64,000 nt of DNA. Source: Methanothrix thermoacetophila PT. Lineage in GTDB: Archaea; Halobacteriota; Methanosarcinia; Methanotrichales; Methanotrichaceae. Shown in pieces: positions 1 to 56,100 of the stretch. The notes below the pieces were generated by a model, which saw only the letters and a program-made list of their open reading frames with translations, made no database searches and was not told the origin of the DNA. Where the stretch lies: the NCBI RefSeq assembly GCF_000014945.1, contig NC_008553.1:1054001-1118000 (forward strand), written 5' to 3'. Position 1 is the first letter of the stretch, and each line of letters opens with the position of its first letter. Both the position numbers and the translations under genes were made by a program.

Positions 1-62
1 CATCCTCGCCTAACCAATTTCTCATTGTATTCGCGCCAATTGCGGTTATCCTCATAGGCCAT
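1..62 (-). CDS. IS5-type transposase, N-terminal fragment cut by window edge
   Basis: The ATG lies at 62-60 on the minus strand, and the first 20 or so residues are identical to the start of the transposase at 52581-53450. The rest lies outside the window. It is presumably an intact second copy of the gene, but that cannot be seen here. See the entry at 52581 for domain and catalytic residues. Confidence 0.9.
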   Translation of the reverse strand, partial: MAYEDNRNWREYNEKLVRRG

Positions 63-110
63 GAAATATATTATATATTTTCCTAGTTTAAATAGTTATC
101 CAACACAGCA
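1..110 (-). mobile_element. Left-edge copy of IS5-type insertion sequence (partial)
   Basis: These 110 bases are an exact reverse complement of 52533-52642, the first 110 bases of the complete element at 52533-53520. The terminal inverted repeat is at 96-110 and reads ttatccaacacagca. The element points left and runs out of the window, so its far end and target duplication are not visible. If the insertion followed the same 8-bp rule as the internal copy, the duplicated target is aacttttt at 111-118. The lack of any mismatch suggests recent transposition. Confidence 0.95.
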
Positions 111-410
111 AACTTTTTCATACTAAGTAGATATTTTATTAGTTTCTATATGAGTATTTCGGTTTCTATAATACGTTTTTAGTTATCCAGATGGATACTT
201 TTTCATGTATATGTAATGACTTGACATTGTTCTCTACTACTATCTTCCGGCAACGTTAAAATAAAATATTTTCAATTTATATTGCCTTTCTACTTTAGAA
301 AGGGGGTAGAGGCGATTGAGGTTTGATTTGAGGAGGCGAGATCTTTTTGTGTCTATAACTATATTGAGATATATTTGTATGAAGTATAACGATATTTTCT
401 GGGTTGGGAC
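111..410. other. AT-rich spacer between two mobile elements
   Basis: Low-GC sequence with no credible gene. It contains a partial match to the inner-element end (ttagttatcc near 179-188), which may be chance. I see no tRNA, promoter or ordered repeat here. Confidence 0.5.
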
Positions 411-50806: not shown

Positions 50807-52093
50807 ACAAAAGAAATACGTCGTCAGATGGCCAGCCCCTTCGCGTACGCAGATATGCAGCCGGAAATTGGCCACACGAACTTTATATCCATCAGATGCT
50901 CGTCCCAGGAGCTCAGCGGGAACCTGTCGATGTTGTTTCTCTCCTCGCCGCTCTGTATGTTGTATGGACTGCATACCTCCTGGCAGATGTGATCGCTGTA
51001 GTAGTTCCCCTCGCTGCCGTTGTCCCAGATGTTCCTCCCGTAGTAGACCGAGCTGTCCAGTGCGCTCTGCCTGTTGTCTATCATCGCATTGTGGTAGAGC
51101 GTGTTGGCCGTGCTGTAGATGTCCAGACGAATGCCCACTCCGTTCATCATCGCGCGGTTGCCGCGGATAGTGTTGTTCTCCGAGCGCGAGATGTCTATGC
51201 CAATTGCATTGCTGTGCACGCTGTTCCCGATCACCATGTTGTCCTTCGATCCCTCTATCCTGATGCCCGCGTCGTGGTTGCTGCTCGCGTTGTTCCTGTG
51301 AACTATGTTGCACCTGCTCTCATCTGAGATGAGGATGCCATCCTTTATGCTGCTGATGACGGTGTTGCTGGAGATCAGATTGTTTGTCGCGCGTTCTGTT
51401 TTTATCCCGAAACCATTTCCATTGAGGCTGTTTCCGGAGATGTTGTTCTCGTAGGATTCTATGACCTCTATCCCGCACTCTCCGTTTCCGTAGATGTCAT
51501 TGCTCTCTATCACATTTCCGCTGGACATGTTCAGTATCTCTATTCCAGCACCATGACTCATAGATACGTTGTTCCTGGAGATCATGTTGCTAGAGCCCTC
51601 TATCTCCATTCCGTCGTGGATGTTCTCCAGCAGCTCATTGCTCTCAATTACATTGCCATCGCCATATACTATGATCCCACAATCATCATTTGCGTTGATC
51701 CTGTTCCACTGCACTGTATTATTGCTACCCCATATCTTCATGCCCACGAGGCTGTTTCTGGTGATGCTGCAGTTGATGATGCTGTTGCCGGAGCTTCTTA
51801 TCACAACGCCAGAGCCAGCGCACTCGCTGACGTTGCATCCCTCGATCCGGCTGCCGTTCGACTCGATGACAATTCCGCCCCCGATGATGTTTATGCCGCT
51901 CAAGGCCACACCATCAGCAAGTATCCTGATCTCGCCATCGATTATCGCGCTCTCTTGACCTATAATGTTCACGGTCTTATTGACGATCAGGCTCTCACTG
52001 TACGTTCCCGGCTGGAGATAGATCGTATCTCCATCGGATGCGGAACTGAGCGCATCTCCTACTGATCCAGCGGGTTGGAGCTCTGCTGCACTT

Positions 52094-52103
52094 GCGTGGA
52101 GCG
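52094..52103. repeat. Target-site duplication of outer element, left copy
   Basis: gcgtggagcg at 52094-52103 is repeated at 53969-53978, directly outside the outer element ends gggtgtgtct and agacacaccc. It marks a 10-bp duplication. Confidence 0.92.
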
Positions 52104-52524
52104 GGGTGTGTCTAATATGCTAATATTAGAATATGCTGTATTCCAAAGTTAAGCTAAGATAAATTTTAATATACCATAAAACAAGCAAATAACATGCTTA
52201 AGAGATGGGATACAAGATTATACGATATTAAGTTAATATTAGAAGTATTTGATTCGTTATCGTTAGATTTGCGATCAATAAATGCTCCAAAACCAAAAGT
52301 TTATGATTTGGAGACCATAATTAAGGCACTTTTGATAAAAGAGTTTGAGGGGCATTCTTTAAGATCAGCAGAAGTTAGGATTAAAGAAGTGCTTGGAATA
52401 AGAATTGATCATTCAGTTTTGCATTTCTGGGAAAAGAATTTATCTTCAAATATTGAAGAGATATTAAATAAAGTTCTTGAAAGGTTACAATCAATAGATT
52501 ATACAGATAGTTTCATTGATTCCA

Positions 52525-52532
52525 CTAAATTC
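52525..52532. repeat. Target-site duplication of inner element, left copy
   Basis: ctaaattc at 52525-52532 is repeated at 53521-53528, directly outside the inner element ends. It is an exact 8-bp duplication inside the outer transposase gene. Confidence 0.95.
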
Positions 52533-53520
52533 TGCTGTGTTGGATAACTATTTAAACTAGGAAAATATATAATATATTTCATGGCCTATGAGGATAACCG
52601 CAATTGGCGCGAATACAATGAGAAATTGGTTAGGCGAGGATGGTTTTACCTTAGCACTGACTTTGTGAATAATTGGGATGAAGAGCTACTGAAGATGAAT
52701 AAGAACAAGAATGGCAGACCCTATCGCTATCCTGAGACATTTATTCAATTTTGTGGTTTAGCATACGCCTTTCTTCATTTACCATACAGGCAGCTCGAAG
52801 GATTTATTCAGGCGCTAAGCGGATTTGTTCCTGGGCTGTTGGCTGCCGATTATTCGACATTATGGCAGAGGATTACGAATTTGGAGTTGAATATTCCAAT
52901 ACCTGATAACGATTTAGTGGTCGCAGTTGACTCAACAGGAATGAAGGTTACGAATAGAGGCGACTGGATGAGAGAAAGTCATGGTGTTGAACGCAGAGGC
53001 TGGATAAAAGTGCATATCGCCGTAGATGTTGAAACAAGGAAGCCCGTAACCTTCGAGATAACCGATGAGACCGTCACTGATCATGAGATGGTAAAACCGC
53101 TGCTGGAAGATGTTAAGCTTGAAGATTCACTGATGGATGGAGCTTATGATAAGGAGGGGGTATTCGATTTCATGAAAGAGAAGGGCGTAGATATGCCTGG
53201 AATCAAGATCAGGAAGAATGCTATCGTCAAAGCAGGCTCGTCCAGAGCCGAACCAGTTCTTGAGTTTATGAAGTATGGATACCACAGTTGGAAAATTGTG
53301 CATGGATATGGAAGAAGGTGGGCGGCTGAAAGTGTATTCTCAGCAATTAAGAGGATATTTGGCGAGACTGTGAGGGCCACTTCGAAGGAAGGCATGATTC
53401 GCGAAGTACGCAGGATGTTCACATTTTATACTATAATTTTAAGCGTATAACATTATGACGAAGATTCTTGAAAGAATAAGAGAGAATATATGAATATAAA
53501 GCTACTTATCCAACACAGCA
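52533..53520 (+). mobile_element. Inner IS5-type insertion sequence, complete (988 bp)
   Basis: Perfect 15-bp terminal inverted repeats (tgctgtgttggataa at 52533-52547 and its complement at 53506-53520), an exact 8-bp target duplication and one intact transposase gene. A copy with identical first 110 bp starts at the left window edge. The element looks active or recently active. The 8-bp duplication fits the ISH1-like branch of IS5, an assignment made by reasoning, not by search. Confidence 0.95.
52581..53450 (+). CDS. IS5-type transposase (intact)
   Basis: A 289-residue DDE transposase. The N-terminal part (KNGRPYRYPETFIQFCGLAY, FLHLPYRQLEGFI, DYSTLWQRI) is the family DNA-binding region. 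The catalytic core has VVAVDSTGMKV (first Asp), MDGAYDKEGVFDF (second Asp) and RRWAAESVFSAIKRIFGE (Glu) with the expected Y/R/E spacing. The ATG is 48 bases after the left end. The stop is 70 bases before the right end. Low GC compared with host genes. A copy of its start is at 62-1. Confidence 0.95.
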   Translation: MAYEDNRNWREYNEKLVRRGWFYLSTDFVNNWDEELLKMNKNKNGRPYRYPETFIQFCGLAYAFLHLPYRQLEGFIQALSGFVPGLLAADYSTLWQRITNLELNIPIPDNDLVVAVDSTGMKVTNRGDWMRESHGVERRGWIKVHIAVDVETRKPVTFEITDETVTDHEMVKPLLEDVKLEDSLMDGAYDKEGVFDFMKEKGVDMPGIKIRKNAIVKAGSSRAEPVLEFMKYGYHSWKIVHGYGRRWAAESVFSAIKRIFGETVRATSKEGMIREVRRMFTFYTIILSV

Positions 53521-54025
53521 CTAAATTCGCAAATAAAAAAAGGATATCATAAAGATACAAGCAATAACCAGGAAAAATGAAACGATATTCCCTGTGGAAA
53601 CGAGGATAAAATCGGAACTAACAGTGCCTGAGGGATCAGGCTATTTATTTGGTGACGGTGAATATGATTCCAGGAAATTTTTGAATGATGTTGTAGATAA
53701 AGGTTACATGCCTGTTATTAAACCGAGAAAAATAAGTGCCGGTGGTTTTGGATCCAGAATCAGAGATCGGATCTTTAATAGAGAAATATACAAACACAGA
53801 TCAGTTTGTGAAGGATTCTTTGGTGCTTTGACCAATTGGTTTGGAGATAGAATACCATGTTTCCTCGAAGAGACAACTATTACAAGGATGCTTCTGAGAG
53901 TACTGGCTTATGCATTGAGAATTCTATCAAGATTTAGTATAAAATAAATTTGAATGATAGACACACCCGCGTGGAGCGTGAGCGTTATAAAGAGCAGAAT
54001 GATTATCCTCAGAAATCTCATGGTC

Positions 54026-55144
54026 TCACCCGCTCAGGTCCGACTTCAGGCGGTCGTCCATGGAAGCACCATCCAGGTTGGCCTTCTCGAGCGATCTCAG
54101 TGTGAACTCATCGTACTCGATGTTGCGCAGGCTCGCCCCGCTCAGATCCACGTTCGTCATCTCGACCATGTGCATCGTCACATCATTCAGCACCGCCCCT
54201 GCGAGGTTCGAGTTTGTGAGGAAGACTGTGTCCATCTTCGCCTTTTTGATCTGCACCCCATGCATATCGATGTCCCTGAGGTCGAGATTGAAGAGCGATG
54301 TCTTGTACAGGATTGCTCCGCTGAGGTTTACACCTGTCGTCTTCACAGAATCCAGCACCACCTCTGAGATATCCGCGCCTGCCAGATTGGCCCCGCTGAG
54401 ATCCGCGTAGCGCATCTTGCAGCCGCTTAGGTCCGTATCTCTCAGCTCTGCCTCTGTGAGGTCTGCATAATCCAGGCTTGCGTCACTCAGATCCGCGCCT
54501 GTCATTCTGGCCCTCATCATGTATGACCGCGTGAAGTCGGAGCCGCTGAGATCTGTACCTGTCAGGTTCGCTCCGTAGAGCTCAGCTCTGGAGAACTGGC
54601 TCTCCCTGAACCGGCTCCTGCTCATATCCGCCCAGCTCAGATGAGCGCCGACGAAGTTCGCATGGCTAAGCGATGCGCCGGAGAAGACCGCGCCTGTGAG
54701 ATCTGTGCGAAAGAACCTGGTTCCAGTCATCTCAGCATCCTCAAGAGAGACATCGTCCATCAGGGCCTCTGTGCAGTCCGCCATGGTCAGATTTGCGTTT
54801 ACCAGACTTGCACCACTAAGCCGCGCGTTCCTGAGCTTGGCCCTGGAGAGATCCGTGCCGCTGAGATTTGCGCCGCTGAGGTCCGCCATGCTCAGATCCG
54901 CGCCTGCCAGCGAAGCACCTTCGAGGTTTGCATTAACAAGCCAGGCGGATCTCAGATAGGCTCCGTTGAGGTTTGCACCCCTGAGATCCGCGCCCGTCAG
55001 GTCTGACTGGTTGAGACTTGCGCCGCTGAGATCCCGGCCGCGCAGATCAGAGAAACGGAGATCAGATCTGTCACATATATCCACTGCATATGCAGTGCTC
55101 ATTAAAATCGTGAGAATTATTATCATTTTATAACCTGAGCTCAT
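54026..55144 (-). CDS. Exported pentapeptide-repeat protein
   Basis: About 372 residues from ATG 55144 (CCAGGTGGTATT upstream). A longer frame starts at 55207. The signal peptide MIIILTILMSTAYA is followed by some 60 tandem A(D/N)LSG-type pentapeptides (DLSGASLNQSDLTGADLRGA and so on), forming a right-handed quadrilateral beta-helix. Such repeats serve as scaffolds, and being exported it is unlikely to be a Qnr-like gyrase protector. It is in an operon between the transglutaminase-like gene and the interrupted NosD-like gene, so two different beta-helix proteins are encoded side by side. Confidence 0.9.
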   Translation of the reverse strand: MSSGYKMIIILTILMSTAYAVDICDRSDLRFSDLRGRDLSGASLNQSDLTGADLRGANLNGAYLRSAWLVNANLEGASLAGADLSMADLSGANLSGTDLSRAKLRNARLSGASLVNANLTMADCTEALMDDVSLEDAEMTGTRFFRTDLTGAVFSGASLSHANFVGAHLSWADMSRSRFRESQFSRAELYGANLTGTDLSGSDFTRSYMMRARMTGADLSDASLDYADLTEAELRDTDLSGCKMRYADLSGANLAGADISEVVLDSVKTTGVNLSGAILYKTSLFNLDLRDIDMHGVQIKKAKMDTVFLTNSNLAGAVLNDVTMHMVEMTNVDLSGASLRNIEYDEFTLRSLEKANLDGASMDDRLKSDLSG

Positions 55145-55199
55145 AATACCACCTGGGCGCAGGGATCCATTTGGCCGCTTGATTTGTGATCTCATCAAA

Positions 55200-55880
55200 T
55201 CAGGCATACCTCCACTTCGGGTTCAGAGAATCCAGGTATTTTATGTCCGGGAAGCTGTACGGCGCTCTGTAGTAGCTGCTGTCTGTGACAACGCCGTAGT
55301 AGCTGTCGACTGCAAGCCACCTGTCGCTGTTATCGGGATCTTCAACGATTATCCACAGATGGCCCTGGTTCTCAAACCCGCTCGGGTCATACATGTACAT
55401 TATTTTGTACCCGAACTGTGTATAAAGATTTGCCAGCTTTTGAGAACCATCGTAGCACATTCCGAGGGGAGTTACAGGAAAGATTGTGAGCCTGCTCACA
55501 GATTTGATAAACTCTTGATTGGTTGTCATATTGTAAGATCTGTCCTTCCTGATCTCCGCGATGGGTATCACCTGCATGATTCCTGTGCTCTTCGGTGGCT
55601 CCATCCAGAGGTCTGCAAGCCTTGGCGCCCCGCCATTGGGCGTGAGGTAAACGGTCTTACCGCTCGGAAGCTTGACCGTCACATATGACTTCTCAGGGGT
55701 CGCATCGTATCCATGTGATACCAGAAAAAACGCGAGGTCCTGTACAGTTATGCCGATATCCTCATAGCTGGAGATCAGCAGCCAGAGATCGTTGACATCA
55801 TCCGCAGACGAATGGCCGATGCTCAATACGACCAGCAAAATGATCCACACAGTTCGACTGCTGAGCGCCACCTCGGCCAT
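55200..55880 (-). CDS. Exported transglutaminase-like protein
   Basis: A 226-residue protein. The N-terminal signal peptide (TVWIILLVVLSIGHSSA) is followed by a helical/beta pro-region and then a Cys-His-Asp arrangement typical of transglutaminase/peptidase folds: GMCYDGSQKLANLYTQFGY (Cys), NQGHLWIIVEDP (His) and WLAVDSYYGVV (Asp). It is first in the three-gene exported operon. It could crosslink or cleave surface proteins, possibly the beta-helix partners. The active-site reading is an inference from the pattern only. Confidence 0.78.
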   Translation of the reverse strand: MAEVALSSRTVWIILLVVLSIGHSSADDVNDLWLLISSYEDIGITVQDLAFFLVSHGYDATPEKSYVTVKLPSGKTVYLTPNGGAPRLADLWMEPPKSTGIMQVIPIAEIRKDRSYNMTTNQEFIKSVSRLTIFPVTPLGMCYDGSQKLANLYTQFGYKIMYMYDPSGFENQGHLWIIVEDPDNSDRWLAVDSYYGVVTDSSYYRAPYSFPDIKYLDSLNPKWRYA

Positions 55881-55968: not shown

Positions 55969-56100
55969 GCGGTTTTTGCTGTGTTGAATAATTCGATGCC
56001 TTGTGGCCAATAGCTATCGATTCCTACTAAAGTCTCATGTTATATGAATTAGCTCTCTGCTATTGGATTTCCAAACATTATTCAACACAGCAGCGGTTTT
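55969..56100. mobile_element. 116-bp MITE related to the inner IS, with target duplications
   Basis: The element proper is 55977-56092. Ends tgctgtgttgaataat and attattcaacacagca are perfect 16-bp inverted repeats. The first 11 bases equal the inner IS end. Inside, ccaatagc and its complement extend the inverted repeat imperfectly. The 8-bp flank gcggtttt at 55969-55976 is repeated at 56093-56100, the same duplication length as the inner IS. It has no coding capacity and would move only with a transposase supplied in trans. Confidence 0.92.

Follow-up and report, generated by a model that had tools for sequence, protein, structure and literature searches.

Nested insertion sequences very probably disrupted an exported beta-helix protein gene in Methanothrix thermoacetophila PT

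Introduction

Gene inactivation by an insertion sequence (IS) that duplicates its target, including the arrangement of one IS within another, is a textbook process, and the locus described here shares its hallmarks: element ends, exact target-site duplications (TSDs) and a broken reading frame. The mechanism is no different from that of known IS inactivation; what sets the case in this archaeon apart is just which gene and which elements are involved. Among described elements, the IS5 family (NF033579) is the closest to the inner of the two ISs, which likewise has DDE_Tnp_1 and DDE_Tnp_1_5 domains, 15-b terminal repeats and 8–9-b TSDs. In contrast, the outer IS departs from this family in matching it weakly and in ORF2 only, in having two ORFs in different frames and in producing 10-b TSDs. 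For the interrupted gene, the nearest described proteins are NosD, the epimerase AlgG and the PL6 lyases, which have a signal peptide and a right-handed beta-helix (PF13229, PF05048) in common with its product. Unlike NosD, which serves copper/nitrous-oxide-reductase maturation, this locus is adjoined by no nos genes in the stretch read. A survey published in 2008 on recently active ISs names the organism solely for IS neighbours (PMC2246112), and in the literature we found no paper naming this locus or its elements.

The window analysed here comprises 64,000 nucleotides, bases 1,054,001–1,118,000 of a genome assembled as one contig, 1,879,471 b long. Five other genomes of the genus, i.e. sister species, formed the comparison set.

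Results

An exported beta-helix gene divided by an insert

A minus-strand gene is split by a 1865-b insert (52104–53968) that has inverted terminal repeats, the outer bases of which match at 11 of 11 positions (GGGTGTGTCTA), and is flanked on both sides by the 10-b target duplication gcgtggagcg (left copy, 52094–52103; right copy, 53969–53978). The 5′ remnant on the minus strand (53979–54021) retains the ATG at 54021 and 14 signal-peptide codons, and the 3′ part (50824–52093, minus strand) retains 422 open codons. When the flanks are joined with one copy of gcgtggagcg, a single stop-free frame of 440 aa results, beginning MRFLRIIILLFITLTLHASAAELQPAGSVGDAL and running from ATG 54021 to a stop at 50824 (441 codons counting the stop). 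An earlier note on this DNA had placed the insert and its target duplication exactly to the base and had claimed that the flanks rejoin without a frameshift, as they do. Its expectation of an uninterrupted gene was sound, whereas the length of 'about 420 codons' that it gave was too short, and the '53-base start' that it described includes one copy of the target duplication, only 43 bases lying outside.

Profile searches matched the beta-helix frame to Beta_helix (PF13229, 169 bits, in the 3′ part), and the NosD Pfam model PF05048 also matches well. The NosD subfamily model TIGR04247, however, scored 102.2 bits against a cut-off of 300. We accordingly rejected identification as a true NosD, the likeness being limited to the fold; the label 'NosD-like' used earlier is apt for a beta-helix and not for NosD identity. 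The hydrophobic N-terminus, which ends A-S-A-A in the joined frame and in most sisters, is a putative signal peptide. In the AlphaFold model of an intact sister protein (L056), a right-handed beta-helix is predicted with pLDDT mostly above 90 for residues 21–310; residues 17–60 are ordered and the end is poorly predicted past residue 351. With a predicted signal peptide and predicted coils, the rebuilt protein falls among the exported right-handed beta-helix proteins. The nearest solved folds to the L056 model are alginate epimerases, PL6 lyases and tailspikes, all at low TM-scores (0.2–0.5), and the fold faintly suggests a role in binding or processing surface polysaccharide.

Two elements, one inside the other

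The outer IS occupies 52104–53968 (plus strand) together with its guest and measures 869 b once that guest and one copy of its TSD are removed. Its first transposase ORF (52194–52547, plus strand), cut by the inner IS, matches DUF772 (PF05598) below cut-off (E 5e-4), and its ORF2 (53594–53947, plus strand) matches the DDE_Tnp_1 end (PF01609, 32 bits, cut-off 23). No curated IS family cut-off was passed by this transposase: against NF033579, ORF1 gave no match and ORF2 reached 31.4 bits for a cut-off of 140, the split ORFs having been scored separately. Six other exact, uninterrupted full copies are present in the genome, making seven identical copies, and four of the six have 10-b TSDs of their own; the remaining two lie inside a duplicated 6,885-b unit and share identical flanks. 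Two sister species carry the element at 97–100% identity, and among 50 genomes of the order it was matched in three, all within the genus.

In the uninterrupted outer IS, ORF2 lies in frame −1 relative to ORF1 and the two overlap at an A7 run (53535–53541). This arrangement is identical in all outer IS copies, including the six intact ones (L035–L040), and the A7 run also occurs in a sister-species copy (L061). The transposase may thus need a −1 frameshift on the A7 run, by programmed frameshifting or by transcript slippage in an archaeal element, a possibility that we put forward tentatively and with slightly less than even confidence. An RNA structure 3′ of the run that could stimulate frameshifting was not found (z −0.19), nor were wider relatives of the element, sought in the 50 genomes of the order for conservation of the frameshift.

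The inner IS (52533–53520, plus strand) is 988 b long, with the terminal repeat TGCTGTGTTGGATAA and the 8-b target duplication CTAAATTC at 52525–52532 and 53521–53528. It encodes a 289-aa transposase (52581–53450, plus strand) that scores 250.8 bits against NF033579 (cut-off 140); this score, above the curated cut-off, assigns the element to the IS5 family, and its ends and 8–9-b TSDs also fit. Within that family, its terminal repeat and TSD length resemble those of the IS903 subgroup. Eight other exact copies exist in the genome, six of them with their own 8–9-b TSDs. The nested insertion is beyond chance, because identical ends are found in other exact copies, six of the outer element and eight of the inner.

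The 869-b DDE-transposase IS entered the signal-peptide codons and duplicated 10 b of target. The 988-b IS5-family element lies within ORF1 of the outer IS, flanked by its 8-b target copy, and has broken the transposase gene of this outer copy. The earlier note dated the outer IS before the inner; the inner IS is indeed the younger of the two elements in this nest, whereas the order of their arrival at this site is our inference. Nesting alone does not prove that the outer IS was already here, because six intact outer copies could act in trans. The pair might have been assembled elsewhere and moved here as a unit by transposase from any of them, for which the intact outer ends of the nested copy also speak. 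The genome, however, holds no nested outer and inner copy other than this one, and such a transfer would call for an additional event and for the donor to have been lost. We regard it as improbable and, given that single nested copy, hold the stepwise order, with the outer IS here first and the inner IS second, to be likelier.

Remnants of the gene and age of the insertion

The 5′ stub now encodes 37 aa and ends within the IS, so that at most a 37-aa signal-peptide fusion would be made from it. In the 3′ part, the earliest possible start is GTG 51972, before which no ribosome-binding site is recognisable; a product begun there would have neither the signal peptide nor the N-terminal cap. Without an earlier start and without a signal peptide, no exported product is expected from the 3′ part.

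The 422 codons of the 3′ part contain no stop, whereas about 12–16 would be expected had the sequence been unconstrained over the whole lineage branch, a rough figure that counts substitutions only. On this reasoning, the insertion most likely dates to about the final quarter of the branch at the earliest. Values of dN/dS are 0.14–0.20 between the window and its sisters and 0.19–0.37 between sisters, and at codons on which the five sisters agree, the window alone differs by six changes that alter the amino acid and 29 that are silent. The open frame, the lack of an excess of amino-acid changes and the identical IS copies indicate recent damage, and we infer from the lack of decay that the insertion is young relative to the split from the sister species.

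The same lack of decay would also fit a 3′ part still in use, with transcription starting in the operon or at an IS end and translation from GTG 51972 giving a 382-aa intracellular protein. In favour of this reading stands the open, undecayed frame, which a young insertion predicts just as well; against it are the missing signal peptide, the unrecognisable ribosome-binding site and a start that would fall inside the first coil, as judged from the ordered residues 17–60 of the sister model. We consider it very unlikely and favour a recently broken gene.

The same locus in sister species

The earlier note had proposed that sister strains should contain the gene uninterrupted. All five sister genomes encode such an orthologue (439–442 aa), 77–79% identical to the downstream part in the window. 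In each of them, as in the window, the ATG lies four bases past the stop of the pentapeptide-repeat gene; no sister has a different start, and 53979–54021 corresponds to the 5′ end of the gene in all five. Codons align one-to-one across the target site (window, ctc acg ctc cac gca agt gca gca; sister L054, ctc gcc ctc tca gcc agt gct gca). That the two pieces were never a single gene and that the flanks match by accident is a reading for which we found no supporting point, and five intact orthologues aligning across the site reduce its probability to practically nothing, ruling out unrelated sequences. In other genera of the family, a search of 44 genomes gave no beta-helix orthologue at E <= 1e-80.

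Upstream lie an intact gene for an exported pentapeptide-repeat protein (54026–55207, minus strand), whose position in the order is kept in the five sisters, and the intact first gene of the row (55200–55880, minus strand), identified from its ORF and from profile searches as encoding an exported protein with no Pfam or NCBIfam match. The order of unknown-family exported protein, pentapeptide-repeat gene and beta-helix gene is kept in 5/5 sisters. The gene for the 440-aa right-handed beta-helix protein was the last of three tightly packed exported-protein genes. Its earlier description as the third member of an exported-protein operon was worded too firmly: the conserved order and tight spacing point to a putative operon.

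Upstream of the row's first gene lies a 116-b miniature element (55977–56092). Its ends (TGCTGTGTTGAATAAT) resemble those of the inner IS, and it has an 8-b target copy (GCGGTTTT). The corresponding position in the sister genomes gave no match to it, although further copies exist in this genome and in relatives.

Other traces of mobile elements

Target duplications (ATTTGGAAA and AAAAAGTT) have been swapped between two oppositely oriented IS copies of the inner type, one at window positions 1–116 (G000:C1:1053123–1054116, L047) and the other at G000:C1:1272609–1273596 (L050). This exchange points to an inversion of ~219 kb that would have arisen by recombination between the two copies, with nearly the whole window inside; in a genus search, the flanks of the two copies were not found together in the fragmented sister genomes. 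Elsewhere in the genome (G000:C1:1644000–1656000, L062), the 6,885-b unit that carries the outer IS occurs in exact tandem copies; judging by the matches at 1644079, 1650964 and 1657849, there may be three of them.

Both ISs are 98–100% identical between species (G003:C100 (L061), G004:C6 and other contig ends), and the genes of the same species at the beta-helix locus are 78–87% identical. This disparity suggests either that both ISs moved between species recently or that those assemblies are contaminated.

Discussion

The locus is an ordinary IS knock-out of a gene, unusually cleanly documented. A nested-IS disruption of an exported beta-helix gene very probably explains it as a whole. In all likelihood, the strain no longer obtains an exported beta-helix protein from this locus, and no near copy covers the loss, since the closest paralogue in the same genome is only 33% identical. 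The 3′ part should not be annotated as a complete gene. The case is a clean instance, and one that can be dated, of a gene recently lost to transposition in a methanogen that uses acetate: purifying selection maintains the gene in five sister species, but it is broken in this genome, which probably comes from a cultured strain. For studies of the surface proteins of the genus that use this strain, it means that the beta-helix protein is missing here.
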